DNA from: Brachycybe producta
Taxonomy: Eukaryota > Arthropoda > Diplopoda > Playtdesmida > Andrognathidae
Direction: 5' to 3'
DNA length: 64,000 nucleotides
NCBI GenBank assembly: GCA_036925085.1
Contig: JAUPFP010000008.1
Location: 2,391,957 to 2,455,956 of the forward strand
The notes under the pieces are model-generated. The model was not told where the DNA came from. It did no database searches and worked only from the letters and a program-made list of their open reading frames with translations. Positions 6,036 to 28,300 of the stretch are shown here, piece after piece. Position 1 is the first letter of the stretch. Every line of letters begins with the position of its first letter. The position numbers were made by a program, and so were the translations under genes.

Positions 6036-6039
6036 TTTC
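6036..6039. repeat. Target-site duplication TTTC, left copy
   Basis: The four bases immediately left of the left LTR are TTTC. The same four bases (14031-14034) follow the right LTR. A 4-bp duplication is usual for Ty3/gypsy integration. Confidence 0.75.
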
Positions 6040-8291
6040 TGTTATTTTTACCTCCACTCTATAGCCCTGAAAGTCAAAATTCAAAATTTTGGAAAAGGGG
6101 AAGAAGTGAAAGTGTACAGCTTGGTTCAGGTTCCAGACAATGGTCTATTTGGGGAACCAGTATCCCTGTTTTGATCAAGTTGTGCCCCCCTATGTTTCTT
6201 GGTGTATTTTTATGTTATTGGCCTTGTTTAAAAAGTAAATTATTAGTTTCCTACCTTTTCTTGATGCTCGTTCAGATGTCCAGTTGATTTGGGGTTGTGG
6301 AGTTGATTGCTGAACTGGCACACACTTAAATTAAACACCAACTCAAATGATGATCACAAAACACTATGAAGTTTGCACACAATTTATTGTTTTAATTTGT
6401 AAACCAACCACAATTAATTATAATTCTGTATGTGTAAACCAAAATATTTTAAAGTTCTATTTGTGAAAGCAACAAAAATGATCTAAGAGTTCTGAATATG
6501 CAACCAAAATATTTTAGAGTTCTGAATGTGTAATCCCAAAATATTTCAGAGTTCTGAATGTGTAATCCCAAAATATTTTAGAGTTCTGAAAGTGTAATGA
6601 GAATATTTTAGAGTTCTGAAAGTGTAATGAAAATATTTTAGAGTTCTGAAAGTGTAATGAGAATATTTTAGAGTTCTGAATGTGTAATGAGAATATTTTA
6701 GAGTTCTGAATGTGTAATCTCAAAATATTTTAGAGTTCTGAAAGTATAACCAAAATATTTTAGAGTTCTGAAAGTGTAATCTCAAAATATTTTAGAGTTC
6801 TGAAAGTGTAATCTCAAAATATTTTAGAGTTCTGAAAGTATAATCTCAAAATATTTTAGAGTTCTGAAAGTATAACCAAAATATTTTAGAGTTCTGAAAG
6901 TGTAATCTCAAAATATTTTAGAGTTCTGAAAGTATAACCAAAATATTTTAGAGTTCTGAAAGTATAACCAAAATATTTTAGAGTTCTGAAAGTGTAATCT
7001 CAAAATATTTTAGAGTTCTGAAAGTGTAATCTCAAAATATTTTAGAGTTCTGAAAGTATAATCTCAAAATATTTTAGAGTTCTGAAAGTATAACCAAAAT
7101 ATTTTAGAGTTCTGAAAGTGTAATCTCAAAATATTTTAGAGTTCTGAAAGTATAACCAAAATATTTTAGAGTTCTGAAAGTGTAATCTCAAAATATTTTA
7201 GAGTTCTGAAAGTATAACCAAAATAATTTCTAAGTTAATCAAACAATACACTAGGTTCCTACAGGAAACTAGTATATTGTTTTCTTTTTTCTTGTAAAGA
7301 AAACTAAGTCCTTCTGATCCCTTTACAAACCGCTGGTATTCTTTTATCTCTCTCTCTCTCTCTCTGGCTGTAGACACTCTCTGAAACCTCATTGAGAGCC
7401 TCACACTCTCTTTGAGAGTCTGCCACACTCTGGTCTAAAATCTAAAATGAACTGACTAAAATTGAAGATTTTAGTCCATTCTAGTCTCTCATTGGTTAAC
7501 TTGGGTTGATTATTCAATCATTTAATTGGTCAACCTTATGATTGAAAAGTGAAAGTATTGTGATTGACATGAAGGACTAACATGATATCAGGTGTTGACA
7601 AAAGTTACATTAAATGTAAACACAGGTGTGACCTTTCTTAGAAAAGGTTAATTTTAAGTGTTAGTTTGCTTTAAAAGTAACGATAGAATAATATTATATC
7701 TTATTATGATTGACAGGCCATTTTAACATTTCCTCTTATTATGACAGCAAATCTCATAAATTATTTATGTGATCTTATTATTTTCACACCCCCAGCCTAG
7801 TCACCGTATGATATTTTGTTAATGTGTGATGTGTATGCCTATTGTAGTTAATTGTTTCTTCTTTCTGTTATCATTGTTTCACTTAAGGTGTTAAATTACA
7901 CCTTTTAACTTTTCTTTCTATTCACTTAAGGTGTTATATTACACCTTTTAGCTTTTACATACGACACACCTGTTATGACACTTGTTTACATTTTAAACTT
8001 TCTTCTTCTCTATCGTCTATTCTTTTTCAGGTGTCACATTACACCTTTCTAGTTAAACACCTGTTTTCATTCACAAGTTCTTTTAAACATTATTATTAAC
8101 ATTATTATTAACATTATTATTATTATTATTATCATTATTACCATTATTATTACTATTATTATTATTACAATTCTTATTGTTGCTTTTCCTTTTTGGTTTC
8201 TATTTAGTTTTTTGTTTTGTTTATTTTTGTTTATGTATGATTTCATGTTAGGTGTTTAGGTGCATTTATAGTCCATTTTGAACACCTAACA
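6040..8291 (-). repeat. Left LTR (3' LTR of the element), 2,252 bp
   Basis: Begins TGTTATTTTTACCTCCAC and ends GAACACCTAACA on the plus strand. It contains a roughly 26-unit minisatellite, a CT-rich microsatellite (about 7351-7365), several AGGTGT palindromes (7885-8050) and an ATT-rich microsatellite (about 8088-8166). Offset from the right copy is a constant 5,739 bp with no indel. Confidence 0.93.
6425..7222. repeat. Minisatellite inside the left LTR, 30-32 bp units
   Basis: About 26 tandem units share the core ATATTTTAGAGTTCTGAA, followed by either AGTGTAATCTCAA or AGTATAACCAA, or at the left end ATGTGTAATCC variants. The two main unit types alternate irregularly. The array carries no unique spacers. 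The same array, unit for unit, is in the right LTR (12164-12961). Confidence 0.92.
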
Positions 8292-8304
8292 TCCCTACCC
8301 CCTA
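8292..8304 (-). promoter_or_regulatory. Polypurine tract of the LTR element
   Basis: The minus strand reads TAGGGGGTAGGGA directly before the TG of the 3' LTR. This is the expected place and composition for the plus-strand DNA primer, with one interrupting T. Confidence 0.7.
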
Positions 8305-9390
8305 AATTTCACTTCCCACATTTAATCTGTGTAATTTACCCTAATTGTCATGAACCTTCACTTACAATAGTCCTAATTTTCTACTTTTTTTTTTTCATGT
8401 TATCATTTACCCCATTTTAGCACTTCTATATCTCTTCACTCTTGGATAATTTTATAAATAGACAAATTGCAGCACATTTTAGGAATTGCTCACAAATTCT
8501 ATTAGTTCATTGTTTTGATGTAGTCCTCATGATGGTTTTGTATAGATGTCATCAGATGGTTACTAGGTTGTCATCTGTTGATTGCTGATCTGTAAATCAG
8601 TTTCTGTTGAAATTGTCCTTTAGACATCACTCAGGCTACAATGTCAATATTCAGTCTGATGAAAGGTTGAAGTTCTCCCAAATTGGCAAACCAAGGTCTA
8701 AGTCTTCAAAGTATTAGTCTGCTTTTCTGAAGAGATTTTTTTGATTAACTGTTATAACATCTGGTATTAGTCTGCTTTTCTGAAGAAATTGTCGACTTGC
8801 TAACCTAGCATCTGTAGAGGTTTTCGTTGATGTTCCAATTTTTTGATGAAAGTACAAAGCTCCAACTTGAATGTGGATACAATGTTCTGATTTCGTGAAC
8901 AAACAATACATTTCAATTGACACTTTTAGTACTTGTTATAAGAGTGAGAGATCTAATGCTTACAACAAATGAATAGTCATTTTTTTTTTACCTAGTTTGT
9001 TTGTTTTTCTAGCCTGTAACTATCCTAACAATTTTCTTATCATACTCTATCCTTCCTAACACATTTCTAAAATAGCAGGACAATTCTTTGTTGGTCTACA
9101 AGCCCTAAACACACAATACAAATTACAGATGTACATAATAAATTTGAAACACTTTTAACTACTTTTTCAACACATAAAAATACAATTCTGGTTAATAGTA
9201 TAATAATTGCATGGGTTACATAAAAATTATATAAATGGTAGATTATATAAAAATCATAAAATTAAACATGTTATTCTTTAGCAAATATTGTTTACCTTTA
9301 ACATGGAATTTGCCTTTTCATCATATTACCTTTTTTAGATAAAGATAATGTGAAGGGAGCCAGATTCCATTCCAAATTCAGGATTTATAA

Positions 9391-10130
9391 CTACCTGTTT
9401 TTTCCCACATGTGAACTTCTTTCTATTCCATCTTTTCTAATTATTACAGTGCCTTCTGCACTAACCATTATAACGGGATCATTAAGTTTGATGAAGTTCA
9501 CCCCATCCTCAATTTTGAATGCATCCATTCCCAGTAAATTTTGCCCATAACATTTGTTTTGTTTTGTGGCTGATTCAGACACATTGAAATAATAATTCTC
9601 TATATTATTTCAAACTTATGATTGTACCTTGTTATTTATTTAGATTATGTAATTTTTCATTTATTTTTTTTTTAAATTATTTTACTTGTATTATATATCC
9701 ATTAAATTTTTTCCCAATATATATTTTTTTTTATGTTGATCCCCCATTTAATAATTGTAGAGGCAATATACTACCATTTCCCATTTCAGCTTTTCTACTT
9801 GCCAAAATGTTCCATTATTATAAGAATAAAATTATTCTATTCATTTCATCTCATTCACTGAGATGTTTTTTAAACTCCCCTTTTGTTTTCCATTTTACCC
9901 TTAACTTCAATTTTTCTCTATTTTCATGTTCATCAAATTTTCTGATTACTATATTTCTTGACATTATTTTTCTTCATCACTTTTTTACTCAATTATTGAC
10001 TCCTGAATAGCTTTTTTGGGTATGGGTGCTAGCTCCAATGTATTTCCTGTTTGGCTAGGACTAATAGCACATTAATTGTGGGCATGAAATTTTCTTCCAT
10101 AAAGTATCCCGTTATTATAGTACTCACATC
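9391..10130 (-). pseudogene. Degenerate aspartic-protease-like region of the LTR element
   Basis: Minus-strand frames downstream of gag contain an NLLGMD segment (in 9391-9582), resembling the conserved end of retroelement proteases, and frame-shifted fragments upstream near 9990-10130. An intact DTGA active-site motif was not found in the gag orientation. The interior from 8305 to 9390 shows no reverse transcriptase motif. Treated as decayed coding sequence; assignment rests on weak motif similarity. Confidence 0.35.
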
Positions 10131-10343
10131 CATGGTTTTAGGTATGAATTATTTTTTCATGTTATCCTGTAATACCATATAGCCTCCCATTCTGTTTTCA
10201 ATTGAGTTTGGTTTTATGTCATAGGGGTACCTACCCCCTAGGCTGTTTCATAATTCTTTTCCACTTGTCTAATTTTTACCTTTAAATTCTTATCTTTATT
10301 CAACTTATATATTCATTGTTCCCCCTATTAGAACCTATCATTT

Positions 10344-10683
10344 CTTAATTATACGGATGGTCCATCATCCAACATTAGTGTTTTAATTATCTAACCATAT
10401 TCTTACCTAATTCCGGACAGTCCGTCGTCCAACACTAATGGTTTAAACCACTATTTGTTTTCATTCACTTTCTGTTTTACTGTTTTCTTCTTGCTCTTTT
10501 AAACTTATTTTTCTCAATTACACGGACAATCTGTTGTCCAACATTACTGCTTTTAACTCCCTGTTTCATTTCTTATTTTATTCCGGACAATCCACTGTCC
10601 AGCAGTAATGTTTTAAATCATTTTCCTTTTTATTCATTTGTCTATTTTACTCTTGTTTTTCTTAACTTCATTTTCTGTAACTG
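10344..10683 (-). repeat. Two tandem ~170-bp units, each with two hairpins
   Basis: Four 16-nt inverted repeats (10355-10370, 10415-10430, 10524-10539, 10585-10600) each have a 6-nt loop and about a 5-bp stem starting GGA, followed by an AACA(T/C)TA(A/G)TG-like tail. Spacing is 60, 109 and 61, which shows a duplicated 169-170-bp module. The first hairpin has GGATG/CATCC where its homologue has GGACA/TGTCC, so both inner base pairs changed on both sides. Located between gag and the protease remnant in the element RNA. Confidence 0.7.
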
Positions 10684-10742
10684 TTTTATGGCATCCTTGC
10701 ACCTTTATGTCTAACTGCTAAATTTGGGTCTCTAGCCTCAAT

Positions 10743-11357
10743 TTAATTTACCCCATTTTTCCCTTGTACTAATTTCTCATTTTCTTCTTCGGCTAAAATA
10801 ATTGCGATTGTCTCTTGTAAATTAGCAGGATTCCGGGACAACACAAACCTTTTAATTCGGGAATTCAATCCTTTTATAATTTGGTTTTGGATCATACCAT
10901 CCCGCATGGCTATTTGATCTGGAGTAGGATTTTCATCGGTGAAAGTTCTACCTCGAGTTTTTACCCTCAAAATGTACTCTATTGCACTCTCGGTGCTACT
11001 TTGCTTTTCTTCTAAAAATTTCTGCATTGACACTAATTTGGGTTCTATTGGTTCAAAACGCTGAATCATTAATGCTTTTAGCTCTTCTAGTCTTGTTATC
11101 TGTCTTATCTCTGGGTGATCTCTTAGGAATTCTGCTGCAGGACCTTTACATTTAGCTTTGATTAAGATTATCTGAAATTCCTCTGTCCAATTTGCTAGCC
11201 TAGTGATACCTTCAATCTGCTCAAACAATTCTTTGGCAGATGGACCTTTTCCATCCCCTGAAAAATATGGGATTAAGCTACTATGTACAGGCTGATTCAC
11301 ATTTTGATTGTGCCCCACACCTGAAGTGGTAGCTTCGTTGTCTCCTTGATGATCCAT
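10743..11357 (-). CDS. Retrotransposon Gag-like protein, 204 residues
   Basis: Intact minus-strand reading frame in the LTR element, starting about 400 nt inside the 5' LTR boundary. The body contains a Ty3/gypsy-type capsid region: IPYFSGDGKGPSAKELFEQI, a central segment with AAEFLRDHPEI and a conserved FLEEKQ...A-x2-Y-x2-R stretch, then a C-terminal helix rich in Glu and Asn. No CCHC zinc knuckle is present, and the protein is shorter than most gypsy Gags. It probably forms capsid-like particles for the element. Identification comes from general Gag features and its position, not from a specific family match. Confidence 0.75.
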   Translation of the reverse strand: MDHQGDNEATTSGVGHNQNVNQPVHSSLIPYFSGDGKGPSAKELFEQIEGITRLANWTEEFQIILIKAKCKGPAAEFLRDHPEIRQITRLEELKALMIQRFEPIEPKLVSMQKFLEEKQSSTESAIEYILRVKTRGRTFTDENPTPDQIAMRDGMIQNQIIKGLNSRIKRFVLSRNPANLQETIAIILAEEENEKLVQGKNGVN

Positions 11358-11757
11358 GTTATTTGGTTTATTTGGTTTTCCTTGTAAATTGTTCCCTTAC
11401 AAACCCCACAAAATTTTAAAGAACCTCACCCAAATTTTGTATATAGTCCGCTTTTCTGGGACTTTTTGTATGGGAGCGCGTGCGTGCATGTGTGGGAGCG
11501 AGCAGAAACCACAAAAATATCGCATATGTACTTATATCTACTTAAAACTACTTATTCGGCCATTTGAAAACATCAATCTAAAAGGTATGAAAAACATTGA
11601 GAAGGGAAAAAAAAATTTCAAAGGTTTCACTATTAATTAACATTAATATGTATTTTAATAGGGAAAACATTCAGAAAATTATAACAAAAATTAGAACCCA
11701 GGAATTCAAACTTCAGCTTTAAATCAAAAAGGGGAACACTGAACTCAACAAGGATAA

Positions 11758-11776
11758 AATCCTGTCGACTGCGCCA
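11758..11776 (-). promoter_or_regulatory. Primer-binding site for tRNA-Ser
   Basis: On the minus strand, two bases after the 5' LTR, the sequence TGGCGCAGTCGACAGGATT is complementary to a serine-tRNA 3' end (T-stem CCTGT, acceptor CGACTGC, discriminator G, CCA). tRNA-Ser priming is known in several arthropod Ty3/gypsy elements such as 17.6 and 297. Confidence 0.8.
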
Positions 11777-11778
11777 CT

Positions 11779-14030
11779 TGTTATTTTTACCTCCACTCTA
11801 TAGCCCTGAAAGTCAAAATTCAAAATTTTGGAAAAGGGGAAGAAGTGAAAGTGTACAGCTTGGTTCAGGTTCCAGACAATGGTCTATTTGGGGAACCAGT
11901 ATCCCTGTTTTGATCAAGTTGTGCCCCCCTATGTTTCTTGGTGTATTTTTATGTTATTGGCCTTGTTTAAAAAGTAAATTATTAGTTTCCTACCTTTTCT
12001 TGATGCTCGTTCAGATGTCCAGTTGATTTGGGGTTGTGGAGTTGATTGCTGAACTGGCACACACTTAAATTAAACACCAACTCAAATGATGATCACAAAA
12101 CACTATGAAGTTTGCACACAATTTATTGTTTTAATTTGTAAACCAACCACAATTAATTATAATTCTGTATGTGTAAACCAAAATATTTTAAAGTTCTATT
12201 TGTGAAAGCAACAAAAATGATCTAAGAGTTCTGAATATGCAACCAAAATATTTTAGAGTTCTGAATGTGTAATCCCAAAATATTTCAGAGTTCTGAATGT
12301 GTAATCCCAAAATATTTTAGAGTTCTGAAAGTGTAATGAGAATATTTTAGAGTTCTGAAAGTGTAATGAAAATATTTTAGAGTTCTGAAAGTGTAATGAG
12401 AATATTTTAGAGTTCTGAATGTGTAATGAGAATATTTTAGAGTTCTGAATGTGTAATCTCAAAATATTTTAGAGTTCTGAAAGTATAACCAAAATATTTT
12501 AGAGTTCTGAAAGTGTAATCTCAAAATATTTTAGAGTTCTGAAAGTGTAATCTCAAAATATTTTAGAGTTCTGAAAGTATAATCTCAAAATATTTTAGAG
12601 TTCTGAAAGTATAACCAAAATATTTTAGAGTTCTGAAAGTGTAATCTCAAAATATTTTAGAGTTCTGAAAGTATAACCAAAATATTTTAGAGTTCTGAAA
12701 GTATAACCAAAATATTTTAGAGTTCTGAAAGTGTAATCTCAAAATATTTTAGAGTTCTGAAAGTGTAATCTCAAAATATTTTAGAGTTCTGAAAGTATAA
12801 TCTCAAAATATTTTAGAGTTCTGAAAGTATAACCAAAATATTTTAGAGTTCTGAAAGTGTAATCTCAAAATATTTTAGAGTTCTGAAAGTATAACCAAAA
12901 TATTTTAGAGTTCTGAAAGTGTAATCTCAAAATATTTTAGAGTTCTGAAAGTATAACCAAAATAATTTCTAAGTTAATCAAACAATACACTAGGTTCCTA
13001 CAGGAAACTAGTATATTGTTTTCTTTTTTCTTGTAAAGAAAACTAAGTCCTTCTGATCCCTTTACAAACCGCTGGTATTCTTTTATCTCTCTCTCTCTCT
13101 CTCTGGCTGTAGACACTCTCTGAAACCTCATTGAGAGCCTCACACTCTCTTTGAGAGTCTGCCACACTCTGGTCTAAAATCTAAAATGAACTGACTAAAA
13201 TTGAAGATTTTAGTCCATTCTAGTCTCTCATTGGTTAACTTGGGTTGATTATTCAATCATTTAATTGGTCAACCTTATGATTGAAAAGTGAAAGTATTGT
13301 GATTGACATGAAGGACTAACATGATATCAGGTGTTGACAAAAGTTACATTAAATGTAAACACAGGTGTGACCTTTCTTAGAAAAGGTTAATTTTAAGTGT
13401 TAGTTTGCTTTAAAAGTAACGATAGAATAATATTATATCTTATTATGATTGACAGGCCATTTTAACATTTCCTCTTATTATGACAGCAAATCTCATAAAT
13501 TATTTATGTGATCTTATTATTTTCACACCCCCAGCCTAGTCACCGTATGATATTTTGTTAATGTGTGATGTGTATGCCTATTGTAGTTAATTGTTTCTTC
13601 TTTCTGTTATCATTGTTTCACTTAAGGTGTTAAATTACACCTTTTAACTTTTCTTTCTATTCACTTAAGGTGTTATATTACACCTTTTAGCTTTTACATA
13701 CGACACACCTGTTATGACACTTGTTTACATTTTAAACTTTCTTCTTCTCTATCGTCTATTCTTTTTCAGGTGTCACATTACACCTTTCTAGTTAAACACC
13801 TGTTTTCATTCACAAGTTCTTTTAAACATTATTATTAACATTATTATTAACATTATTATTATTATTATTATCATTATTACCATTATTATTACTATTATTA
13901 TTATTACAATTCTTATTGTTGCTTTTCCTTTTTGGTTTCTATTTAGTTTTTTGTTTTGTTTATTTTTGTTTATGTATGATTTCATGTTAGGTGTTTAGGT
14001 GCATTTATAGTCCATTTTGAACACCTAACA
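11779..14030 (-). repeat. Right LTR (5' LTR of the element), 2,252 bp
   Basis: Same length and internal landmarks as the left LTR, with the minisatellite at 12164-12961. Because the element is on the minus strand, this copy should hold the active promoter, driving leftward into gag. Confidence 0.93.
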
Positions 14031-14034
14031 TTTC
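14031..14034. repeat. Target-site duplication TTTC, right copy
   Basis: Matches the TTTC at 6036-6039. Confidence 0.75.
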
Positions 14035-14632
14035 TACATTGTATATAACTTTTGTTTGTTTATAGAATTATTACAGACCCGTATTAGGGTATGTGTCATG
14101 CACAGGGGCCCCGACCCGCCCGCCCCGCAAATAAATCACTTTGACTTGTCATATTTACTTTGTGATTACATTTTCAATATTTTTTTATGTTTTTTCGTAT
14201 AATTTATTCCAAACTAAACTAGAAATTTCCTAATCGAATCCTTGTCTCATCTATTATACCCCGCTATTTTTAAGGGCCCACACATTCTACTTGGCAAAGG
14301 GCCCCCAAAAGTGTTAATCTCGGCATGGATTTGTCAATTTTTTAATGGAATTTTTTTTTTCTCTTAAATTCTCTTTATGTTTACATAATAATTAATTGTT
14401 GACGACATTTGTATTTTTTTCATATTCGTTAAAAGCGATATTTTATGTGTTGTCAAATTTGTTTCATTATATTTTTTTAAATCTTATATATTTAAATAAA
14501 TAATTGTGTCAAATAAAGTCCATGAATTTTTAATAGTGATACGTCACTTATATGGGGAACCCCTAACAATAATTAACCATAATAAACAAATAATCTAAAG
14601 ATAGCGCCGTCCAAATGAAGAGGACCTCTCAT
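14035..14632. other. Intergenic right of the LTR element
   Basis: No gene. A GC-rich patch near 14100-14130 and AT-rich sequence elsewhere. This is where the remainder of any histone gene split by the LTR insertion would be expected, and none is seen. Confidence 0.5.
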
Positions 14633-15296
14633 AAAGAGGACCTTGGTAGAGGCTATAACCATAGGGGTTGGCTCAAAACATTTACTCGCTTTGTATTTTC
14701 ATAGTCTCCTATAACTCATATAACGGAGTGATAGGAGGCTATGGTACTTTATGGCGAGAGTAGTAAGTTCATAGCGAGGATAGCATACTAAATCAAACTA
14801 GCGTTTGCCCATTAGAATTAGCAGAACGCATGCGCATTACCATCTTATCGTTTTATATAGGAAAACTAACCTAACCTAACCAAACCTATAGTGAACGTCT
14901 CATCGGCAGTTTCCATTGGTGATCAATAGATGGCGCTGCTAACACAAATCTGCAATCACTTTTCTATATAAAACGATAAGATGGTAATGCGCATGCGCTC
15001 TGCTAATTCTAATGGGCAAACGCTAGTACTTATCAATAATAATCATAGTATAAGAAGGAGTGGAGGATTTGTAAGACTATTTACTATCTTTGCTCGGTAT
15101 TGAGGCTAGTTTACAAGAGAGAGTAGTATATTTAGGATAGCATGGCCATGTTTTGTAATATGAATAGTATGTCAAAACATAACAGTTGCGCCCTCCCCCC
15201 CACCCTGTGGGTCCCCAGCTACGTACGATAAAGAAGCAATGGATGACTACCGCAAAATATATCTAGCTTTGTCATAGCCTCCACCCGAGGTCCTTG
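14633..15296. mobile_element. Putative outer foldback/MITE with ~25-bp imperfect terminal inverted repeats
   Basis: The left end AAGAGGACCTTGGTAGAGGC is mirrored at the right end (GCCTCCACCCGAGGTCCTTG on the plus strand, 15277-15296). It contains a smaller inverted repeat at about 14707-14743 (CATAGTCTCCTAT...ATAGGAGGCTATG) and the 231-bp foldback at 14797-15027. No transposase frame is present. A target duplication was not identified. Confidence 0.5.
14797..15027. mobile_element. Foldback MITE, 231 bp with ~66-bp near-perfect arms
   Basis: The arms begin ACTAGCGTTTGCCCATTAGA and are inverted copies differing at about one position over 65 bp. Both contain the palindrome GCGCATGCGC or a one-base variant. 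The 100-bp centre carries CTAACCTAACCTAACC, an arthropod telomere-type (CCTAA)n run. No coding capacity and no clear target duplication. Confidence 0.82.
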
Positions 15297-15733
15297 TTTT
15301 AAATAAAAGTATTGATGTAATTACTTTAATAATCAGTGGCTTTAGTGTTTATAAGATACTCTTATTACTTTCGAATTTAATTTATTCACAAAAACAACGT
15401 CAAATCAATTCAAAATTTCATTCATGACTTGTTTAGTTGTAAAAAAAAAACATAAAAACGATGATGGCGTCAGATATGAAAGGGGGGGAGCCATCCGCCA
15501 TTGTGAATTCTAAAATCATACAAACTGTGGAAGTAACGCAAACCTTTTTGTATAAAAGAAATAATAAAACCATGAACTAGAATTTCCACGTTTACAAATT
15601 TTTATTAAACCAAAATTTATCACATTAAAAAATATTTACAACAATTTTTAAAAACAAAATTCTTAAAAAATAAACGCAAGAAATCGTTTCAATGCTAAAA
15701 CATAAAAAGCTAATCTTTCTCGACATTTTGTGT

Positions 15734-15749
15734 GGCCCTGAAAAGGGCC
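15734..15749 (-). promoter_or_regulatory. Histone 3' stem-loop of H4
   Basis: The minus strand reads GGCCCUUUUCAGGGCC, a perfect 6-bp stem with UUUC loop, 35 nt after the H4 stop, followed by ACACA and a purine-rich CGAGAAAGA block. Confidence 0.93.
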
Positions 15750-15784
15750 GTTGTTTAGATTAGTCGATTTGTTGTTGTCGTTGT

Positions 15785-16168
<384 letters not shown>

Positions 16169-16269
16169 GTTTTGAAAATTAAAATTCAGACGAACACACA
16201 AGCAAACAGAAACAACCCAAAACCAAAATTCGAATAAATTCTTCCGGCGTTTTCAGACTCAATTTATAC

Positions 16270-16657
16270 TCTAGAGTCACGCGGACGTAAATGAACGCCA
16301 AATTAATGTTTTAAATTCCGGTTTAACTTCCGCCTAATCACTAATACACTATTTTGTGAACGAGTATAATCTTCCGCACTTATCAGTGCGCTAATTTCAT
16401 TGTGTACTGTACAGTACCTGTAAAGAACGTTTATTTATGTTTTTGCTTTAAATTTTATCATATGTAAATTGCTATTCAATGACAATGAGCGATTTCCTTT
16501 GTTATTTATGCAGTGTAATGAACTAAATGACAAACATAACAGATCTCAAACAATAGGTTTAACAAAAAATAGTTCCTAGACAAAAAAAAACAACGCAATC
16601 ACCGCCAAGCGGCAGCACTTACTTGAAATAATTCTTCAATTATACCGGCTTCACGGA
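16270..16657. other. Intergenic upstream of H4
   Basis: Presumed H4 promoter distal region. Nothing else recognised. Confidence 0.5.
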
Positions 16658-16913
16658 GACCACTTTGTGGCGCCACAAAGTGGTTGGCAACGGCCTGTTG
16701 TCAGTGCGTGCATAGTCTCTGGTTATTATAGGAGGCTATGGTGCAGGCGACTGGTATAACCCTTCAAGGTCAGACCATGATTATCACTGACAAAAAATTG
16801 GTGGTCGCCACTTGTGGCCGTACTCAACCACTTTGGTGCAAGAAACAGTGGCTCGTGTGAAACTCCCTTATATAACCAATGACCTTCTAGAATGTGGCGC
16901 CACAAAGTGGTCG
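16658..16913. mobile_element. Palindrome-ended element, ~256 bp
   Basis: The 20-bp terminal motif GACCACTTTGTGGCGCCACA opens the element and recurs inverted at 16894-16913. At the left end it extends into a perfect 26-bp palindrome (16659-16684) around GGCGCC. Interior sequence has further CCACTTTGG-like pieces. Non-coding. No clear target duplication. Confidence 0.6.
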
Positions 16914-16968
16914 ATTTTATCTTAAGACCATAATACTCCTAGGGTCTGTGCACGCCCATTTTTCTAGA

Positions 16969-17164
16969 CATGCATCTGTAGACAGCTTTAAAATTTCTTT
17001 GGCTCCGCCCTTTTATGAGCGTCATCAAATTCTAATTGGTTTGTTACGAGGACTGATGTAACATGCTCCGCCCTTTTTATTTCTAATTGGTTGATATTTT
17101 GTCTGACGCTCATAAAAGGGCAGAGCCAAAGAAATTCTGACGCTGTCTACAGATGCCTGTGTTT
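16969..17164. mobile_element. hAT-like MITE, ~195 bp
   Basis: Arms of roughly 50 bp start GCATCTGTAGACAGC and run through TTTCTTTGGCT...GCCCTTTTATGAGCGTCA, with the inverted copy at 17103-17156. TTTCTAGA precedes the left end and TTTCTAGT follows the right end, a 7-of-8 match to an 8-bp target duplication. Non-coding. Confidence 0.7.
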
Positions 17165-18680
17165 CTAGTTATTGCATCCCCCTTCGATGAGTCACATTGA
17201 GTGGGTGACCATACTGTATTCTAGGGCCCACCACCGCCTAGTGACCTTATTATAAAGTCCCATGAAAATAAAAAGTGAATACAAAAGACTCGTAAATGCA
17301 CAAAAACATTGCACAAGTTTACGATAATATGTTATCAATGAAACTTAAAATATGAAATTATATAAAATAAATTATGGTAATGTATTTCATGATTTATTTT
17401 ACCAGCCTTGCACACAAATCACAAATGAACTTAATTGAATTCTCTCTCATACATTCTTTTAAAATTGATTTTGTTTTTTTCAGTTTACAGTTACAGCATA
17501 TTTTAAAAAAAAAAAACCATGCTGTGGTGGTGCAATCACTATCAAGAGACAAAATACATCTTCACACATAAAAATACCCCGATTCATAATAAAAACAAAA
17601 CTTCATTTTTATAATGACAATAATAATTAATATAGAAAATCCAATTGGAGGCTATTTTTTTTTACTTATACTAAATCTGTACAAATTCCATTTATCTCGA
17701 TCGATCGTAGAATTTTTGTTGTTTTTTTTTTTTACATATGGGCAGTGCCAAGTAACAAGGTAAAAAAACAAAAAAAGAAACTACAAAAAGGAGGTTCGAT
17801 GGCCAGGCGGCTTAATATGTATATAAATATTTATACGGAAAACGATCCTACGGATCACTTTCATCTCTTTCGTTCAAAACACACATTTAAAGAGAAAAAT
17901 AAGAAATTACAAAAAAAGAGAAAGAAGACACAAATGTAGACTCAAAAGGCTCTCTCCTCTTGCTCGTTCACAAATTTAACAACAGACACAAGCGAGGAAC
18001 GGAATTGGCTGGTCAGCGAATACAAAATTAACACGAAATGTAAATAACAAGAATTGAAACATGTCTCGACACTTATCGCAAACTCTCCAAACATGTGAAA
18101 CACACGAGTCAATGAAAATGATAAAAACAAAAATAAATGAGTGTGGACGAGAAAAACGAGAATCGGGGAAGGTTTGTGTGTTTTTTTTTATACAAAGATA
18201 GTCACTGTAATGAGATCGAGAGAAGAGAAAAGAGTGTAAGGGAAGAAGAAGAAGAGCCTTTTTTAATGTTTTATCATATCAGTCACTATACGAAAAACAA
18301 CTGTTCTTCACACTTTTTTTCCCCCTCCAATTTCGGTTTCCAATAAACAACTACTTAAAATGTGTCCTCTTTCGACCGCTACCACCACACAGTTGTGCCG
18401 AGCCCACGTGAAAAGGAGTGAGCAATTCCCGTCTATCTCTCGTAAGCGTCGTTCGCAATTCAAGGTGACGCACACATACACGTTTACCAGAGATCCTCTC
18501 TCCCTAACCCAAACCTCAAAGCCTCTTCACAAGTTCCATTTATCTTACACCCAAAGGCAAAAAAAATGCACAACTTTAAATGTAAAACGACTGCAGAAGG
18601 GAGGGAAGTCTGTTTTCATGTAAAGTTCGTGCTCAAATCATTCCGGTCGATGTCAAAAAAAATTCCCTTTCTGATTTGAG
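17165..18680 (-). other. slimb 3' UTR and flank
   Basis: AT-rich, no supported coding region. It lies directly 3' of the slimb stop and is likely in large part its 3' UTR. Open frames on the plus strand (for example 18360-18623) are antisense noise. Confidence 0.5.
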
Positions 18681-21531
18681 CTACTTGTTCACATAAGTGT
18701 AAGTACGAGACGGCGAGGACTTACTGTCCGGTGAAGTATAATTTAGGAAGTCCCATATAAGGATCGTGTCATCGTGCGAACTGCTCACTATTTGAAATTC
18801 GTCAAATTGTAATCTAAAAACTCGGCCGGAATGCTCCTGAAATCAAATTCGAACCCGATCGAAACCGTATGTTAACGACGCCATAACGATAATAAATTAA
18901 TAAAAACAGAAGAAAAAAAAACTCACCACCAAAGTACGGAGGCAAAGCGTTCCGGACGGTGCTCTTGGATCCAAAGCAGCAGCCAAATCCCAAACTTTTA
19001 TTTTTCTGCTCGTAAAAACAAAGAACAAATTAGACGAAGAGGAAAACTCCTCCGTCAAAAAATCAATTCGACTAACCCATCGTAAGCACCGCTAACAATT
19101 CGTTTGTTGTCAAATCGAATGCATCGAACGAGCTCTTCGTGTCCTTCGAGAACACGCAAACAAGCTCCACATTCGATGTCCCATAATCTAATTGGAGTTT
19201 AAAAATGTTGATAGTTAAGTTCAAAATTAAAACTAGTTTTTTTCTGCTCAACTTTCGTTTTCATTACACCTCAGAGACCCGTTTTATTCACAGATTGTCC
19301 TTTTAATACAAACCGAATAGTGTTGTCTGAACTGCCGCTGACCACCAGTCGATCTCTGTACTGCAGACAGGCAATACCTCGCTTGTGACCATTCAGAGTG
19401 CGAACAAATTCGCAAGACGATGTGTTCCACACTTTGATTGTACGATCGCCAGACGCAGACACCACATACTTTTCATCAAAATCGACTACGTTGACAGCCG
19501 CTCTATGGCCTACGAGAACCCTCCGAAGATTGATCTCGGACGGAGAGACCATGTCCCAAACGGCTATCGACCGATCCTAAATCACAAACACATGAAAAAT
19601 CGAATCCATTAAAAAATGAAACAAGAGGGAAAAAAAGGAAACCTACCTTGGAACAGGTGACCATCATTCCATTGTTAAAACGAAGATGAAGAACGGCTTC
19701 GCAATGATGAATCAGTGAAGTGACCATCTTACCGGTGTTTACATCCCAAACGCGGACCGTCGAATCGCTAGAGCCACTTATGATAACTTTATCGTCATAC
19801 TGAAGGCACAAAACGGATCCCGTGTGCCCCGTCAACACCTGAACGCACTGCAAACTGATTCGATCCCAGATCTTGATCGTGTTGTCCCGCAACCCGCTCA
19901 CGATCTTCTGATCGTCGTACTGAAGGCAATAGACTCCTTTACTGTTTTCGCTTCGACAGTTAATTCGCTGAAGGTTGTGTCTTCCACACCGCCAATTATT
20001 TTCTATGCTCTGTAAACATAACACACATTAGACGAAATCTCTTTGAATAGAGACGATTGTTTTTTTTACGTCAATGTCCTGAATGATCCTCGGATATAAC
20101 TTCCGATAGTACATGTGATCTGGATTCGGTTCTCCAGGTTTTGGCTTGAACAAATACTTTCCCCTATAAACGCAAAATAAAATCAGATAAGAGTAATTTG
20201 TAGTCGCAATTCCCGAATATCAAAGTCAAGTGTTGATTAACTAACCATCCTCTTCTCTCGGCCAATCCCCTCCAGAGAGAATCCGTCCGAACTTTCCTCT
20301 CGATCAGTTTCTTCCAAAGCATTCCCTCGGAAATGACACGCTGCCATTCTTTACATACGAGCTCAGCAGCACACAGAGACTGTGCGTCGAGGTACGAGAG
20401 AATGTTTTCTGCAACATGATCTAAACCTTTCTCTGTATTGAAATAAAACAATTAAGCGATGGTTCAGAGAAAGAGAGAACTGAGAGATAAGTTACTTGGC
20501 AAGAGAGAGACAAAATCTCGTTGCAATATGGGTTTAAGAAATGCGTTCACATGACTGTGTTGATAGTGACACATATTGCCCAAAAGATGTTCTACAAACT
20601 CCACTTGATCCCTCTCGCTCCATTTCTCAAAGTATTTCAGACAGACGTCCTTTTCGGCACCTAAGTTCGGAGAAGGTTCAGTTCGCCGTAAACCATCGAA
20701 TAGATTTGTCATTGGAACCTAAAATATTATTTTACAAACAGAATTAGCATTCAAAAAAAGAAAATTTCTGTAGAAAACTCTTGAAATACGTCTTCAGTAT
20801 GTCCGAAAAACATTATAAAATTCCATCAAAAGAGAACTTTTATAAAGAGGTATTTTCAAGAGATTGCAAACTGAAAACTAGAAGAAAATGATAAAAAAAA
20901 ATAGCTTCAACTTGAACTTTTTAATGATTTTTCATGTTTTGTAATGGTTCAAAAACATGATCAAGATGCATAAAAAAGTTGCAAACAAAGAGGTCAAGAA
21001 TTAGGTCACACGTAAATAGAATGGCATAAAAAAGTCATTAGATTTTTTTTTTGTGTATCTTTCAAGTGTGTTTTCTTTTCTATCTTTTGTTACTAACAAA
21101 ATATAAAAGGATTATGTGAGGTTTAAGTCCTAATTGAACAAAATCTGCTTAATGTCCGAGCGAAATTTGTTGAAGACCACAAAAAAAGACGAGCTGAATG
21201 AACTTCCGCGTACGTCATTCAGACAACTAGCATGAAAACCGGAGAAAAAAGAAGGGGGAGGAGGAGGAGGAGGAGGAGGAGGAAAAGAGAAAGACGCAAT
21301 GGACAAATATACAATGAGCAACAACGCAATGGAGGTGAATTAGAGAGAAAAATGGCGAACGATTCTGGAACAGGAGAGAGAAAAATCTGATGGAGATGCA
21401 ACAGAAAATCACTTTCAATTCATTTATACGAGCAAATTGCATCTAAAATATATGCATAACATAAAACTACATTCATTACGCCATACCTGATCACATTTTG
21501 GTGATTCTTGGATAATTTTCTCCGTCTCCAT
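18681..21531 (-). CDS. slmb: Slimb / beta-TrCP F-box and WD40 protein
   Basis: Substrate receptor of the SCF ubiquitin ligase that recognises phosphodegrons (beta-catenin/Armadillo, Ci/Gli, IkB). Nine coding exons: 21487-21531, 20496-20718, 20246-20432, 20070-20163, 19647-20009, 19314-19576, 19077-19187, 18927-19005, 18681-18836; total 1,521 nt, 506 residues. The N-terminal dimerisation (D) domain contains [19 protein letters not shown]. The F-box follows ([19 protein letters not shown]), then seven WD40 blades, ending in [12 protein letters not shown] and a short Ser-rich tail. Conserved to vertebrate BTRC almost residue for residue. The start is the ATG beginning [10 protein letters not shown], whose exon joins in frame. 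Divergent from E93 with 795 bp between start codons. Confidence 0.98.
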
Positions 21532-22326
21532 CGTTAAAAAATACTAAAACTGTTGACAGATCTTCTCCAAGAATGAAGCTGCTGTGTGAAAAAAAAGAAA
21601 GCAAAAAACACCAGAGGGAGCTGAAAACAGACAAGAAAATCTGGAACTTGGCAACACTGCGCAGGAAGTGCCGAGAGGATAGAAAAAAAAGTGACGTCAT
21701 CAAAGTAAATAGCATCACTTCCTGTTTATGTAAATACATTGTTAGCTATTGAACAAAAAAAAAAGAGGAATTATAAATAATGGGGTCAGTTTTGAAATAC
21801 GATAAAGTCAAAGGTCGAGCTGTAAATATTATTTTTTTTTGGCTTATGTAGCACTTTTGATTTTTGGCTTTATTGTGTGTTTAGGCCGTCATTTGAAAGC
21901 TGTTCAAGCCATATGCAATTTTATTTTCACCGAAAACGGAGAAAAAAACGACTTGATTTCAGTCATTTTTCAGCCTCCATTTCATACAAATTATGTCATA
22001 AATAAAGTCAATTTTGAAATAAAACACGAGACAATACATAAATTTGTTATTATACGTAACATCCGCAAGCACCGCAGCTTAACCTGCGCCATTGAGTGGT
22101 ATATACACGTATGACGTCATACGGTAAATTACGGCCGTTACAATTCGCACATGTTTGTACCGATCATAACGTCGTCTACCTGTTGATTTCCATTCGAGAG
22201 CGAAAGCGCTATGACGTCATAGCCTTCCGGTCTAAAAATGCATAATGACGTCATTGAGTTGTATGCTATTCCATGGTAGGAGGAGGAGGAGGAGGGAAAG
22301 AGGAGGACGGACGGACGGAGGTAAAA
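21532..22326. promoter_or_regulatory. Divergent slimb/E93 intergenic region with four CRE palindromes
   Basis: Perfect TGACGTCA sites at 21692-21699, 22112-22119, 22212-22219 and 22246-22253; the last three lie within 142 bp near the E93 start. A GGA/GAGGA-rich tract (22278-22320) sits just before the E93 ATG in the presumed 5' UTR. The CRE octamer is the known CREB/ATF site. Function here is inferred. Confidence 0.65.
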
Positions 22327-25300
22327 ATGGCGGAATGTGTCGCTGCTCGTTGCGTCCAAGAGCGGCGATTCTTCAAAAGAGAATTACAAAAATGGGGCAA
22401 AAATGTTTTGTACTTAGTTGGTGAGTGAGAAAATTGCACGTTTTTTTAAAAATTCATTATAATATAAAATGTATAGACGAGATGAAGTTAAAAGGTGAAG
22501 TCAAAGATGAGGGTTTCTTTCTCTCTCTCTGTCTCCCCCCCTGTTTTTTTTTTCTATCAGCCGTTGTAATTTTTTGTGAATGACATCGTTTTTGCTTTTT
22601 ATTATATCTATATAAAAATAGGAGAGAGGGGAGGGGCGATTTTTTTTACGGAGGGTGGAGAAACAGAGACGGAGGGAGGGAAGGAGGGAGAGGAGGGTAA
22701 AGTGAGGTCCTTCTTACGAGTCATCGGTGGTGATCGTCTTTCAAGGATTTCATAAAGAAACATAAGAACTTATCTTTCTTATTATATTCTCAAACACTTG
22801 TTTTGTTATTTGTCACATGTTCGGATTCTCTCTCTCTCTCTCTATTGAGTCTCTAAATTCTCTTTGGCGGCGGCGGCGCGCTGCTTTTTATATAGGACCC
22901 CCACCTAAAGACCACCTTATTCGAGGCGCGTGGCGAATGGCGCGTGGGGGGGGGGGGGAGAAGAAAACAGGAGTTGAGGGTCAGTTCGAGGCACATGTAG
23001 TCGCCATCGAGCACACAATGAGGTACTTTTATGAGTACGATGTTTACGTTTGCGGTTTATGGCAATGAATTTGTTAGCTAGTTTGCGGATTTGTTGTGTA
23101 TATAAGCGGTAGACGTTACAATGTTCCGTTTTATATACAATGTAATAATTACATTATACATAACTGGCTTGCGGATGCGGTTGCAGTTGCCATCGCGCGC
23201 ACAATGAGGTACTTTTATGAGTACGATGTTTACGTTTGCGGTTTATGGCAATGAATTTATTAGCTAGTTTGCGGATTTGTGGTGTATATAAGCGGTAGAC
23301 ATAACTGGCTTGCGGATGCGGTTGCAGATATACGGTTTTTTTTAACGTGCCGGCCGCCGCCGCCGTTGTTGCTAGTAGCTTCTTTACCTTTGCATATGCG
23401 TCTCTCTTCTTCGCAAGAGTGTTTTTTGCACATAAGCACGGACTCCTTTCTTTCTTTCCTAAACAAGGACGTTTTTTCTCAAGGCTACTCTTATTTTTTT
23501 TTTTATCATTATCATTCATCATCAGCATATTATTATTAATAATAATGAAGTTTTTGATTTCAAAGTAATAAGATCATCATAATAATTTTTTTTTATGAAA
23601 AAGAAAATAATTTTTTTTTTCTTATTTTACATTAAAAAAAAATGCAATCGATATTCATTGATTATTAAAAAAATAAAAAGAGAGAGGAGGAGGAGAAGGT
23701 TGTTAAGGTGATTGAGGTGGTTTTAAAGCGTAAAATGCTCTTCGAACTCTTGGTTATTCTCTCTGTCTTTCAGGAGTAAAAATTAAAATTAAGAAGTGGG
23801 ACGAATTCTAAATTGTCTCAAATCAGAGTAGGTTCTCGAATCCTTCATATAAGAATCCTATTATTATTCATTAAGAAGATAACAAATAAGTGAAATAATA
23901 TTAAATATTAAATTATTAATAATAAAAAAAAACAAGTGTGGCTTCACTCAGGGTCAGGGCCACAAGGTGATCCGGGTTGCAACAATCGCCGGGTTTTTCT
24001 GGTTAGTGAACGCTTGCTTCTATTGGACGTCAATGGAGTTAAAAACTAATTTTACCAAAGTTTTTAACAGTTTTTTTTTAAGGTTAGGATTCGAAAGACG
24101 AAAAAAAGCGGCGAAGATTCACGTTTTCGAATTTCGAATATATTTTTCAAGATTCGAGGTGTCTTTTTGTCCCGACGACATTCCTAATTAAAATAAACTT
24201 GAAGGTGCTTTAGAAACTAGAAGGGGATATCTCAATCATTTCAAAGGCATTTTCATGTTGATATATCTTTGTCAGGTTTGAAAGCGGAACAACTTTAAGC
24301 TGATGATATTTTTTTTTTGGTAATTTTTTTGTCTTTTTTAAAAGTTAAGGTTAAAAAGATATCAATATGAAAATAGAATTTAATTGATTCAGTTAACACT
24401 CTTTAATTTCTAACACACGGGTCAGGATAAAAAGATGAACGGGATGAATATTGGGGGTAACTCTAAAACCCGACACAGAATGCATATAGAATTAGATGAA
24501 CACTATATTTTAATTGGATGAACAGAGAGAAATACAAGGATGAACATACTTTAAAGGAATGAACGTGGGTTTAAGGGGGATGAACATGTTTTTATGGGTT
24601 TAGTTTAGGATCGGTTCGGTTCGGTTAGGTTACCTAACCTAACCTAAAACCATGTTCATCCCTTTAAAGAATGTTCATCCTTTTATTTCTCTCAGTTCAT
24701 CCCTTTAAAATGTGTGTTCATTAATTAAAATATAGTGTTCATCTTATTCTATATGCATTCTGTGTCGGGTTTTAGAGTTACCCCAATGTTCATCCCGTTC
24801 ATCTTTTTATCCTGACCCCTAACACACTTTCAATTTCTTCATTAAACACAGAATAACCTTTTTGTTTGATAAATTCATCAAAAATTCATGAAAAATGAAG
24901 AATTTGAAAGGATATCAATTACAGTAGAACGTCGATTATCGGAACCAATTTTTTTTTACTTATTCTTATGGAAGTAAAAGAAAAAAAAAATTCTTTGCAA
25001 TTGTGTGTTTTTTTTTTACTTTCCTATACTTTTTTTTAATGGGATTTCGATTTTATGAATTTTTGATTATCGGAACTACTGTATGCATACGTCCGACATT
25101 ACTTCCGATAACTGACGTTCTACTGTACGTAGAACAGTAGAATAGTACAGTGATTGTACACTAACAAAGGATGTGTACAATAAAAAGGAGAAAATGGAAG
25201 AAGAAAAAAAAAACATTTGGTCTTTCTGACCCAGGATCATCAAACTCAGAATATATCACACGATCAAAAAACCCTGATTAAACAAATTCAGCCATAAAAC

Positions 25301-28300
25301 ACCACCTTTGACAAATGATATTAACACCTGTTTGTTGGAAAATAACAACGAGTTTTACAGATCCTAAAAAAAAAAAAGACTGCCAAGTTTTTAGAAATTC
25401 TTTTGATTTTCTTCATATTTTAGGGCTAGAGCGAGTTGCAGAAGAGGTTGTGGGTCACAAGAAATGGAGAAAACTCACTCGTCCTTTAGGTGATGGTTCG
25501 TATATATACCTGTATATATATATTATATAGAAAAAAAAATTAATAGACATTCAGGTTTTGATATCTAACTAATAATTATACCTCATTATGGACAGATGAT
25601 TGCCAAGTGCCAGAAGCTGTCGATTGGAGTCCAGAAGAGAAATGTTTCTTTTGTACGAATCGCAAGAATTCGTCTTCGTCCGCCGTTAGTTTTCGATTAC
25701 GCTCTCTTTCAGTTTCTTGTACGGTTTTATGTGTGATTATTTGTCTGTTTTTTTTTGTGGTTAGAATCGTTCGAAGACTGCAAATAACAGCAATGGAACA
25801 ATCGATGATGATTACGTCGATGATCAAGGTACAAACATATCTTACCTTTTTTTTTTAACTTAAACAAGAACATCTGTTGGTTCGTACGTTCGGTGATTGT
25901 TTAATATAAACGAGACTTTAAAACAGTTCTTCTTCGGACGATGTGCGGAAGAAGCTTGGTTTTGGTGGTGGTGGTGGTGATGGTTTTAGTGATGACAACG
26001 ACGACGATGACAACAACATGGACCTTTTTTTTTTTTAGAAAACTGGTAGTTAATTACGATTTGGAACAAAAAGTGAAAACTGAACTTAACAACGCCTGAA
26101 GCATGAAACTAAGAAAATGAATGGAAGAAATATTATTAATGAATACAGTGTGGCATGACAAATGGATGTGGATGTCCAGCGAAACCTGTTTGAAGGCTTC
26201 GTACAAACGTTAGAATCGATCTCGAACCAAATACTAACTTAACCACTCTCGATACTAAAATTTATGCTGTTCGATTTCTCGTATACTAATCTTTTCAACT
26301 TGAATGAACATATTTAATGAATCGCAATTTTTTGAAACCCGAATTTATACTTAAAAATAAGAATTATTTGTTCGGAATTTTTAATCTTCATTTTTTTTTT
26401 TTTTTTTGCTTTCGGAATTTTTTCAATTTTGTTTATTTTGCTTTCATTTAAATAAAAAGTTACGAAATAAAAATTTAAATTTCAGTTGGAAATTCAATTT
26501 AAAATTTGGCCAAAAAATTAATAATTTTCTTTAAAAAAATTATTTTATTAAATTATTCATTAACAGAAAAATGTTTTTTCGTGTTGACGGTTTTTTTTAT
26601 TCTATTCTAAGGGATTTAACAGAAAATATATTTGGTATTATTCGATTTTTGGCGCTTAAACAGTTTTTACTGTATTTAAATCACTACCATGATTTTTAAA
26701 CCGTACTCAAAATAGCGAATTTGGCCAAAAAGTATTGATAAAGAGACATAAATACAAATTCGTACATCCAAGACAAACGAATAGAAGCGACATTGCAAAA
26801 GAATAAAAGCGTCCAAACTCAAATATAGTCAGTGAGAGTAATGAGAATTTACTACATTTGTGATAAATCGGTTTTCAAAAAAAACCCCCGCAGGTTTTAC
26901 TTGTACAATAATAACATAAATGTGAAATACTAACCTCTAAGGATGTGAATTATTAATGTTACACTTTTAGATGGTTGTCGTCAAACGTTTAACCTTTCCG
27001 TAAATGTTTTTAATTTTCTCAGATTCGAGGGAAGGCAGCCCGTGTTCGGTTGCCTCGGACCAACCTCTCGATCTGAGTATGGGTAGTAAGGTGGCGCGCT
27101 CACATTCTCCCGTCTCCCACAATGGGGATGTCAACGGTTCGACATTCCTCAAAGTGCCTCGATTGCCAGACAAGTCCAGGTGAGTTAACCTCAACAGATC
27201 TTGTTGCTGAATTCTCCTCTAACGGTGATTTACAAATCTTTCATTTTGTTACGAGTAGGAAATTAAAGCGTCGTTCGGACACTGCAACGACGAACACCGC
27301 GACTGCATCCGTAGCGAGTAGTGGTGGAATCGCTGCTGCATCTAGCAGTAAGCGATCTTACACGGACGACGAACTACAGGCTGCCTTACGAGACATTCGT
27401 AGCGGAAAATTAGGGACCAGGCGTGCTGCCGTCATCTACGGTATTCCGCGGTCGACACTTCGTAACAAAGTGTACAAGATGTCGATGGATAAGGTGGCAT
27501 TGGATGTCTCTTCTTCGAAATCCAAAGATGCGACCACGGCCGAAGGTGTACGGCCGCTAACGATGGAAGATTTAGTGGCCGGTACGGACGACGGTATTTC
27601 AGCTAGTGAATCGTTGAAGAGGTTGTTACGTAATCGGATGGCGGAAAGATTAGAGACGAAAAAGGCTGCCACTTCGGTCGGTCAAGCGCTAAGTAGCCTC
27701 GAATCTAATTCTGCCCTCACTCCGTTCTTATCTCACGTTCTTTCTAACATCCAACATTTGGCCCTGTCCCATCAAGGGGTTAGCGACGGTGGCAGGGAAA
27801 CAATCATTAACGAACTTAAGCTTCCCCTTTTGCCCGATCTCATTCGTAAACTGTCCGAAGAACGTTTCGAGGAAGAGTGCAATAGAGTGCATCATAGAGA
27901 CGGTGGTTTGCACGGCACAGAAAGTGTCATTCTTAAAATTCCGTCCTACAAACCGGTTAAAACTCGGTCAAACAACAACAACAACAGTGGCGGTGGTTGC
28001 GAGGCCACAGCTTCTAGTCAGTCTGCTAGTGTTATCCGTGGTGAGAGTAACGTTGGTGATGGGGCCAAAGCTGGTGGTGCGGTTACGTTACGCGAAATCG
28101 TTGCTAAGAGCGTCTCACAACAGACTGGAAGCAACAGTCGAAAGATACCAGTGAACTCGACGAGTGTAACAAACGGAAGTGAAGCTTCTTTGTCACTGAA
28201 ATCTTTTACAAAGGAAAGGATCTCTTCTTCGTCATCGTCCACCTCCTCAAAGAGGAAGCCCACGACGATGTCCAGTGATAACCGGTGCTCTTCAACCTCC

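Follow-up and report, generated by a model that had tools for sequence, protein, structure and literature searches.

A gag-only retrotransposon in the millipede Brachycybe producta and its candidate envelope-bearing helper

Architecture and recent spread of the element

We analysed a 64,000-nucleotide (nt) stretch of the genome of the millipede Brachycybe producta (contig JAUPFP010000008.1, positions 2,391,957 to 2,455,956), here called the window. It contains, at positions 6040-14030, a long terminal repeat (LTR) retrotransposon of 7,991 bp that has two LTRs and an open gag frame and is devoid of pol. This is probably a young, non-autonomous Ty3-type element, an internally deleted and rearranged relative of a 17-kb envelope-bearing element of the same genome (termed the helper), which would mobilise it. 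All coordinates refer to the whole window, in which the element reads from right to left, on the minus strand. Since the gag frame lies on this strand, the repeat at 11779-14030 is the 5' LTR. The features are as follows.

14031-14034, unstranded: target-site duplication (TSD) TTTC, copy 2 (GAAA in element orientation)
11779-14030, minus strand: 5' LTR, 2252 bp, TGTTAG...ATAACA
11779-13150, minus strand: exchangeable block in the 5' LTR, as in the 3' LTR
11776-11761, minus strand: primer binding site TGGCGCAGTCGACAGG, tRNA-Ser (aga/cga)
10743-11357, minus strand: gag, 204 codons, the stop of which precedes the zinc knuckles
10354-10600, minus strand: four short palindromes GGA[C/T]-N8-[G/A]TCC, 3' of gag
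9106-9614, minus strand: decayed envelope fragment, 83.9% identical in nucleotides to helper env (tblastn and nucleotide comparison)
8292-8306, minus strand: purine-rich tract TTTAGGGGGTAGGGA, directly before the 3' LTR
6040-8291, minus strand: 3' LTR, 2252 bp, same sequence as the 5' LTR
6040-7411, minus strand: exchangeable block in the 3' LTR, LTR position ~881-2252, putative R-U5 (repeat and unique 5' region)
6036-6039, unstranded: TSD TTTC, copy 1 (GAAA in element orientation)

The element has the hallmarks of an LTR retrotransposon: paired LTRs with TG...CA ends, a TSD, a primer binding site and a purine tract. Base-by-base alignment, which an initial annotation of the window had proposed as a check, shows that the LTRs at 6040-8291 and 11779-14030 are identical across 2,252 bp, at a constant offset of 5,739. 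They contain tandem repeats of ~32 bp. The same annotation had noted a purine tract and an intact gag of 204 codons; the tract is indeed present and ends directly before the 3' LTR, and gag was found on the minus strand at 10743-11357. Its assignment of the primer site to tRNA-Ser agrees with the genome, in which a tRNA-type 3' end complementing the primer site occurs at 23 places and the reversed control pattern at none. Three of these stretches were retrieved, and in the two given to ARAGORN it identifies the genes as tRNA-Ser, with the anticodons aga and cga. Such tRNA-Ser genes form a tandem array with a 180-bp period and mixed aga and cga anticodons on contig C4, ~1347500-1349700 (L032, L033).

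The interior of the element was searched for in its own genome (295 Mb, 442 contigs), and the best 40 of 182 candidates were scored. These include at least 14 full-length interiors, that of the window among them, and one that is nearly full-length. At least 14 copies besides the window have interiors 99.3-99.9% identical to its own, and the gag frame is open in all 15 window-type copies. LTR pairs were compared in the 13 of 15 copies in which both LTRs are readable. The two left out are L021 and L022, and at the locus of the latter the first ~236 interior bases are missing and another LTR match lies ~12 kb off. Every one of the 13 checkable copies is flanked by its own 4-bp TSD, and the 13 TSDs have 13 different sequences. 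Substitutions between the two LTRs of a copy number zero in 11 of the 13, three in one and one in another, pooled 4 in 26,119 aligned positions, which dates the burst to ~8,000-27,000 years ago at assumed rates of 2.8e-9 to 1e-8 per site per year. Among copies the LTRs vary in length from 1,722 to 2,252 bp; within one copy they are equal to within 30 bases, the pattern expected if both were made from one template. The recent insertion claimed initially is thus borne out by the identical LTRs, the TTTC duplication and the 13 copies with TSDs of their own. That the second LTR is an assembly duplication had been named as a finding that would overturn this claim; the 13 insertions, each with a different TSD, rule this out. 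An assembly artefact or a single decayed locus therefore has next to no probability, and the differences in LTR length between copies, together with the agreement within them, speak against it as well. Some LTR matches come without a listed interior (e.g., C2:10962969, C18:1876873, C6:7968301 and C22:41984, among the best 40 of 763 candidates scored) and are perhaps solo LTRs.

A candidate helper in the same genome

A search of the genome for relatives and for an autonomous partner, also proposed initially, recovered besides the at least 14 copies a 17-kb Ty3-type relative with the same primer site. Five loci (C10, C13, C16, C98 and C188) carry gags that are 81% alike to that of the window, with frames of 417-429 amino acids (aa). 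We defined the helper from two of these five best-matching loci, C10 and C13, which were read in part or whole. C10 spans ~17.0 kb, is flanked by the TSD ATCC and has LTRs of 2,368 and 2,367 bp that differ by 2 substitutions; its pol and env are interrupted. In C13 the frames of gag, pol (1,308 aa) and env (926 aa) are open, and its two LTRs, aligned over 2,417 columns, differ by 1 mismatch and 5 gap positions, the 3' LTR being partial in the stretch read. In Pfam searches the helper Gag of 417 aa has CCHC zinc knuckles, the C13 Pol has reverse transcriptase (RVT_1), RNase H and integrase domains, and the C13 Env matches Phlebovirus_G2 (E 3.5e-29). The protease in the C13 Pol gives a weak match, below the cut-off (gag-asp_proteas, E 0.0033). 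Among solved structures, the C13 reverse transcriptase is closest by sequence to that of Ty3 (4ol8, E 6e-88).

The Ty3-type reverse transcriptase and a pol order of protease, reverse transcriptase, RNase H and integrase, in which the protease match is the weak one, place the helper in the Ty3/gypsy class (Metaviridae), to which the window element is tied by its gag, its env piece, a block of its LTR, its primer site and its purine tract. Helper and window element have the same primer site and the same purine tract; the tract TTTAGGGGGTAGGGA is found in both helper copies read, in a sister element (L030) and in a gag-less element (L042). The same genome thus houses a relative that looks autonomous and shares the cis signals of the window element.

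The six or so open reading frames (ORFs) between the 5' LTR and gag of the helper (L023:4143-7540, also L026) include several rich in Cys and His, and none had a Pfam match better than E 0.038. Four of them resemble pre-gag stretches of a second family (L027), the gag frame of which has 403 aa and is 77% alike to that of the window. Its pol is 80% alike to helper pol in residues 1-1081 and 44% alike in the final part, and in the copy read the pol frame is in more than one piece. The phlebovirus-like env on a Ty3-type element (L025:2935-5712) has its counterpart in this family, in which env is 68% alike (L028:1551-4244). Among the matches listed, the second family had no LTR match of more than 300 bases to the window.

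The interior of the window element was queried by tblastn with the Gag, Pol and Env of the helper and its six upstream ORFs, the reversed interior serving as control. The clear matches were gag (E 1e-106) and an env piece that is decayed and contains stops (E 6e-46); weak ones (E 0.23-0.70) came from another env stretch and from three of the upstream ORFs. Helper Pol had no match at E≤1, and neither reverse transcriptase nor integrase was found. No query matched the reversed interior. An intact reverse transcriptase, which by the initial annotation would have refuted its claim, is therefore not among the matches of helper Pol at this threshold. That annotation had described the interior as a decayed protease-like stretch without reverse transcriptase or integrase. 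Its second half stands, but the stretch at 9106-9614 cannot be kept as protease, as it is the envelope remnant detected with helper Env (E 6e-46).

Exchanged LTR blocks

The best evidence for the helper comes from the LTRs. Over the last 366 LTR bases, the window element has 0 substitutions in 365 positions relative to helper copy C10 (99.7% with a gap), 5 in 360 relative to C13, and 29 in 363 relative to its sister L030. LTR positions 899-1060 are 98.7% identical to C10. Upstream, in the unique 3' region (U3), identity to C10 is 63.4% (1-300), 92.1% (301-600) and 78.7% (601-898), and beyond the LTR it is 82.8% in the first 59 interior bases, 82.2% in gag (17.8% different) and 83.9% in the env piece. 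The corresponding values relative to L030 are 91.5% for the last 366 LTR bases, 96.9% for the leader, 92.2% for gag and 82.5% post-gag. Thus, the 3' part of the window LTR is helper-like, and most of the remaining element is not. The block matches C10 at both of its ends; the ~32-bp repeats between them vary in number between window and C10 and were left out of separate scoring.

Fourteen of the 15 window-type copies have 0-1 differences from C10 in the last 366 LTR bases. The fifteenth, L010, differs from the window at 26 of 357 positions there and from the gag-less element C105 at 0 of 364. Counted from the primer-site border, its informative sites are all of gag-less type at -366 to -32 and all of window type at -11 to +353. 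The -11 sites are weak, being length differences in an A run, and columns past +353, where the gag-less stretch ends, were excluded. The exchange is present in both LTRs of L010, which show 0 substitutions relative to each other. The left border lies at LTR position ~855-881 in L010 and ~855-915 in the helper block, where C10 has a gap.

A block bounded by the primer site and a fixed point of the LTR is the pattern expected if minus-strand strong-stop DNA, once synthesised on one RNA, moves to another during reverse transcription, and the observed borders fit such a transfer. It would mean that both RNAs were present in one particle. The comparisons tend to favour a direction from helper to parasite, because C13 differs from the window block at only 5 of 360 positions, compared with 29 of 363 for L030.

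The blocks could also have spread among chromosomal copies by gene conversion or ectopic recombination, without reverse transcription. We think this unlikely, since two separate exchanges share roughly the same pair of borders, of which one lies near the primer site, and since the L010 exchange is present in both of its LTRs with no substitution between them. There are, however, further patches of unequal identity that suit gene conversion. U3 301-600 is unusually helper-like (92.1%) between neighbours of 63.4% and 78.7%; within the window family, L022 is at 94.0% in U3 1-300, and L011, L013 and L014 are at 94.8% in U3 301-600. The leader and the post-gag part likewise differ from L030 by as little as 1.7% and as much as 19%, respectively. 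These scattered U3 mosaics count against our reading insofar as they may fit gene conversion equally well, or else later switches in reverse transcription.

The shortened Gag and gag-less siblings

The window Gag (204 aa) is 78% identical to the pre-knuckle part of helper Gag (417 aa), with which it aligns up to its own last residue and which then continues into the zinc knuckles. Since L030 has the same gag stop, with recognisably homologous sequence behind it, the truncation probably predates the split between window element and L030. In Pfam the window Gag hits PNMA alone, below the cut-off (E 0.058). Seven aligned Gags give weak matches at E≤1, five to PNMA (best 0.014), three to Retrotrans_gag (best 8e-4) and one to Ty3_capsid (0.095), and a profile built from the seven reached only PNMA2, at E-values of 0.011 and 0.27 that are too weak to count. 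An AlphaFold model of the window Gag has a mean predicted local distance difference test score of 57.4, with values above 80 only at about residues 31-100. A second shortened form, in which gag frames of 264-266 aa likewise stop short of the zinc knuckles, is seen in the partly read loci C17 and C19 (L031, L036).

Over 179 codons, the gags of window and L030 differ by 22 synonymous (S) and 23 nonsynonymous (N) changes, which gives synonymous and nonsynonymous divergences (dS and dN) of 0.225 and 0.056 and a ratio of 0.25 (simple binomial test against neutrality, P 3e-5). The changes are distributed 22/4/22 over the three codon positions. With C10 as outgroup, there are 11 S and 14 N on the window branch (P 0.008) and 10 S and 8 N on the L030 branch (P 0.001); if the more distant L027 is used instead, the L030 branch receives 8 S and 11 N. 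Relative to the helper, both have a dN/dS of 0.08-0.09. In a neutral simulation with substitutions only, the open frame survived one such branch in 103 of 2000 runs. Together, these comparisons suggest past purifying selection on the short Gag, of which there is little sign recently.

Several observations weigh against a function of the short Gag. When L027 serves as outgroup, 3 S and 10 N are assigned to the window branch, which is the neutral proportion. Comparison of the window with its closest old copy, C96 (L035), which carries two stops, gives 4 S and 10 N (ratio 0.66). In the burst, 7 of 33 variable sites fall in gag (615 of 3,487 bases), 4 nonsynonymous and 3 synonymous, so that within these 15 copies selection on gag gives no sign of constraint; insertions and deletions number 0 in gag and 12 elsewhere, which by our own arithmetic has a chance of ~0.1. 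Moreover, the neutral yardstick is uneven, window and L030 differing by 1.7% in the leader, 19% post-gag, 33% in the middle and 15% in the 3' part. Finally, siblings without gag have multiplied too, which weighs against the necessity of the short Gag. The initial proposal that the Gag frame is kept open, and the comparison of synonymous and nonsynonymous change across copies suggested along with it, hence give a divided answer: the frame is open in 15 of 15 copies and dN/dS is 0.25 relative to L030, but the ratio is 0.66 relative to C96 with its two stops, and no constraint is visible within the burst (4 N, 3 S).

The gag-less elements comprise C2, C51 and C105, the sequences of which were fetched, and C31 and C21, which were assigned by interior-search matches only. 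C2 lacks interior 403-955, i.e., most of gag, and its LTR pair shows 0 substitutions in 2,066 aligned bases and 3 gaps. The interiors of C2, C51 and C105 are 0.7-1.8% apart. Since these siblings spread, gag in cis is dispensable, and their spread fits a shared pool of particles.

It is a serious possibility, albeit one we hold tentatively, that the window element is a pure passenger, its gag kept by chance or for a signal in RNA packaging or dimerisation and its open frame a by-product of youth. Retroviral packaging signals can extend into gag, and the spread of the gag-less siblings and the lack of a sign of selection, both within the 15-copy burst and relative to C96 (0.66), are as a passenger would predict. 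What a passenger does not predict is the 22/4/22 distribution over codon positions between window and L030, with a dN/dS of 0.25 and the 204-codon frame open in both. Nor can a packaging signal in interior 403-955 be essential, because the gag-less type multiplied without that stretch.

Slightly less probable, in our view, is a stronger scheme, in which the knuckle-less Gag would have been selected in the parasite lineage after the loss of pol, for entry of its RNA into helper particles or for tuning these particles, and in which three tiers of elements (helper, gag-only parasite and gag-less parasite) would share a pool of particles and swap LTR blocks by strong-stop transfer.

The GGAC-N8-GTCC palindromes behind gag are mostly ~60 bp apart. 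There are four in the window (10354-10600), six in L030 (1912-2315), six in the gag-less element L029, three in L031 and three in the second family (L028, 980-1116); the pattern does not occur in the C10 stretches of the helper. The post-gag array folds better than shuffled sequences (z -3.68). As a conserved RNA hairpin, however, the palindromes were rejected: covariation among units, which were selected by a pattern that fixes the outer pairs, is not clearly above controls, its score being reached by 5 of 500 shuffles. Other covariation measures are unremarkable, and a slid version scores higher.

Discussion

The shared signals and exchanged blocks suggest how the window element may move. 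Its RNA would most likely be packaged together with helper RNA, primed by the same tRNA-Ser as that of the helper, and copied and integrated by the reverse transcriptase and integrase of the helper. During this process, strong-stop DNA from one RNA would jump to the other; the LTR block from about the transcription start to the primer site appears to have been exchanged in this way among helper, gag-only and gag-less elements. A Gag without zinc knuckles would at most co-assemble with the full Gag of the helper. The retained Gag was seemingly under purifying selection formerly, little so recently, and does not appear to be indispensable. No transcript, particle or new insertion was observed, which tempers this reading; mobilisation in trans is likely, judging from the sequences compared here. 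The initial annotation had called the element an animal counterpart of plant gag-only elements that is mobilised in trans. Mobilisation in trans is the likely route, given that the genome holds a relative that has gag, pol and env and shares the primer site, the purine tract and an LTR block. The host is marked as an animal by genes with Psq, MADF and BESS domains, present in the window, which we take to be animal markers.

Gag-only elements of plants, termed TR-GAG, were reportedly described by Chaparro and colleagues in 2015. Neither such elements nor defective animal retroelements mobilised by competent relatives are new. Like a TR-GAG element, the window element has two LTRs and a single gag frame and lacks pol. 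As described in PMC8704663, an Arabidopsis TR-GAG element of the ATCOPIA63 subfamily, with a GAG of 562 aa termed full-length, transposed, and a similar, potentially autonomous relative exists. In contrast to the Arabidopsis element of that account, the window element resides in an animal, has a Ty3-type relative and encodes a Gag without zinc knuckles (204 aa versus 417 in the helper). Defective animal LTR elements, namely the D- and C-types of cattle ERVK[2-1-LTR], ETn/MusD and IAP I-delta-1, are according to PMC10924933 presumed to rely on competent relatives for movement in trans; their central part is replaced, and recombination between types is read there as RNA pairing in particles. The window element resembles them in being defective, in its replaced central part and in its exchange with a competent relative. 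The cattle D-type, however, is presented there as lacking intact GAG, PRO, POL and ENV frames, and these are vertebrate retroviruses, whereas the window element keeps one shortened open gag. A phlebovirus-like envelope on an LTR element, as in the helper, is described for Atlas virus of hookworm, a BEL/Pao element of 9,204 nt with 271-nt LTRs (PMC9094657). Unlike Atlas virus as described there, the helper is Ty3-type by its reverse transcriptase, measures ~17 kb and carries, besides LTRs of 2.4 kb, several additional ORFs ahead of gag.

Yeast Ty1 likewise encodes a shortened Gag, the restriction factor p22/p18, which limits Ty1 itself. By analogy, the short Gag might be an interfering, trans-dominant capsid that enters helper particles and either limits them or biases them towards parasite RNA, which we consider quite unlikely. 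The window protein is the pre-knuckle part of Gag, 78% identical to that of the helper, and Ty1 p22 is described as a truncated Gag by which the assembly of particles is disturbed (PMC4599808, PMC8458377). However, p22 is the C-terminal half of Gag, made in these accounts from a subgenomic transcript of the autonomous Ty1 itself, whereas the window Gag is the N-terminal part and comes from a separate defective element. Moreover, LTR pairs that differ by 0-3 substitutions in the window family and by 1-2 in the helper show recent activity of both, so any restriction of the helper would be weak at most.

Among the titles listed by word searches of an open-licence library, none describes an animal gag-only LTR element. 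The TR-GAG titles listed there concern plants, and a brown-alga paper has the phrase in its reference list only. A parasite with a knuckle-less Gag combined with an envelope-bearing Ty3-type animal helper was likewise not found in the titles and abstract openings covered by these searches.

In B. producta, all three kinds of element (helper, gag-only and gag-less) are young and share one genome. This makes two questions testable, namely whether a parasite gains from keeping part of Gag and whether the RNAs of different elements share particles. Of such sharing, the exchanged LTR blocks may be a direct record.

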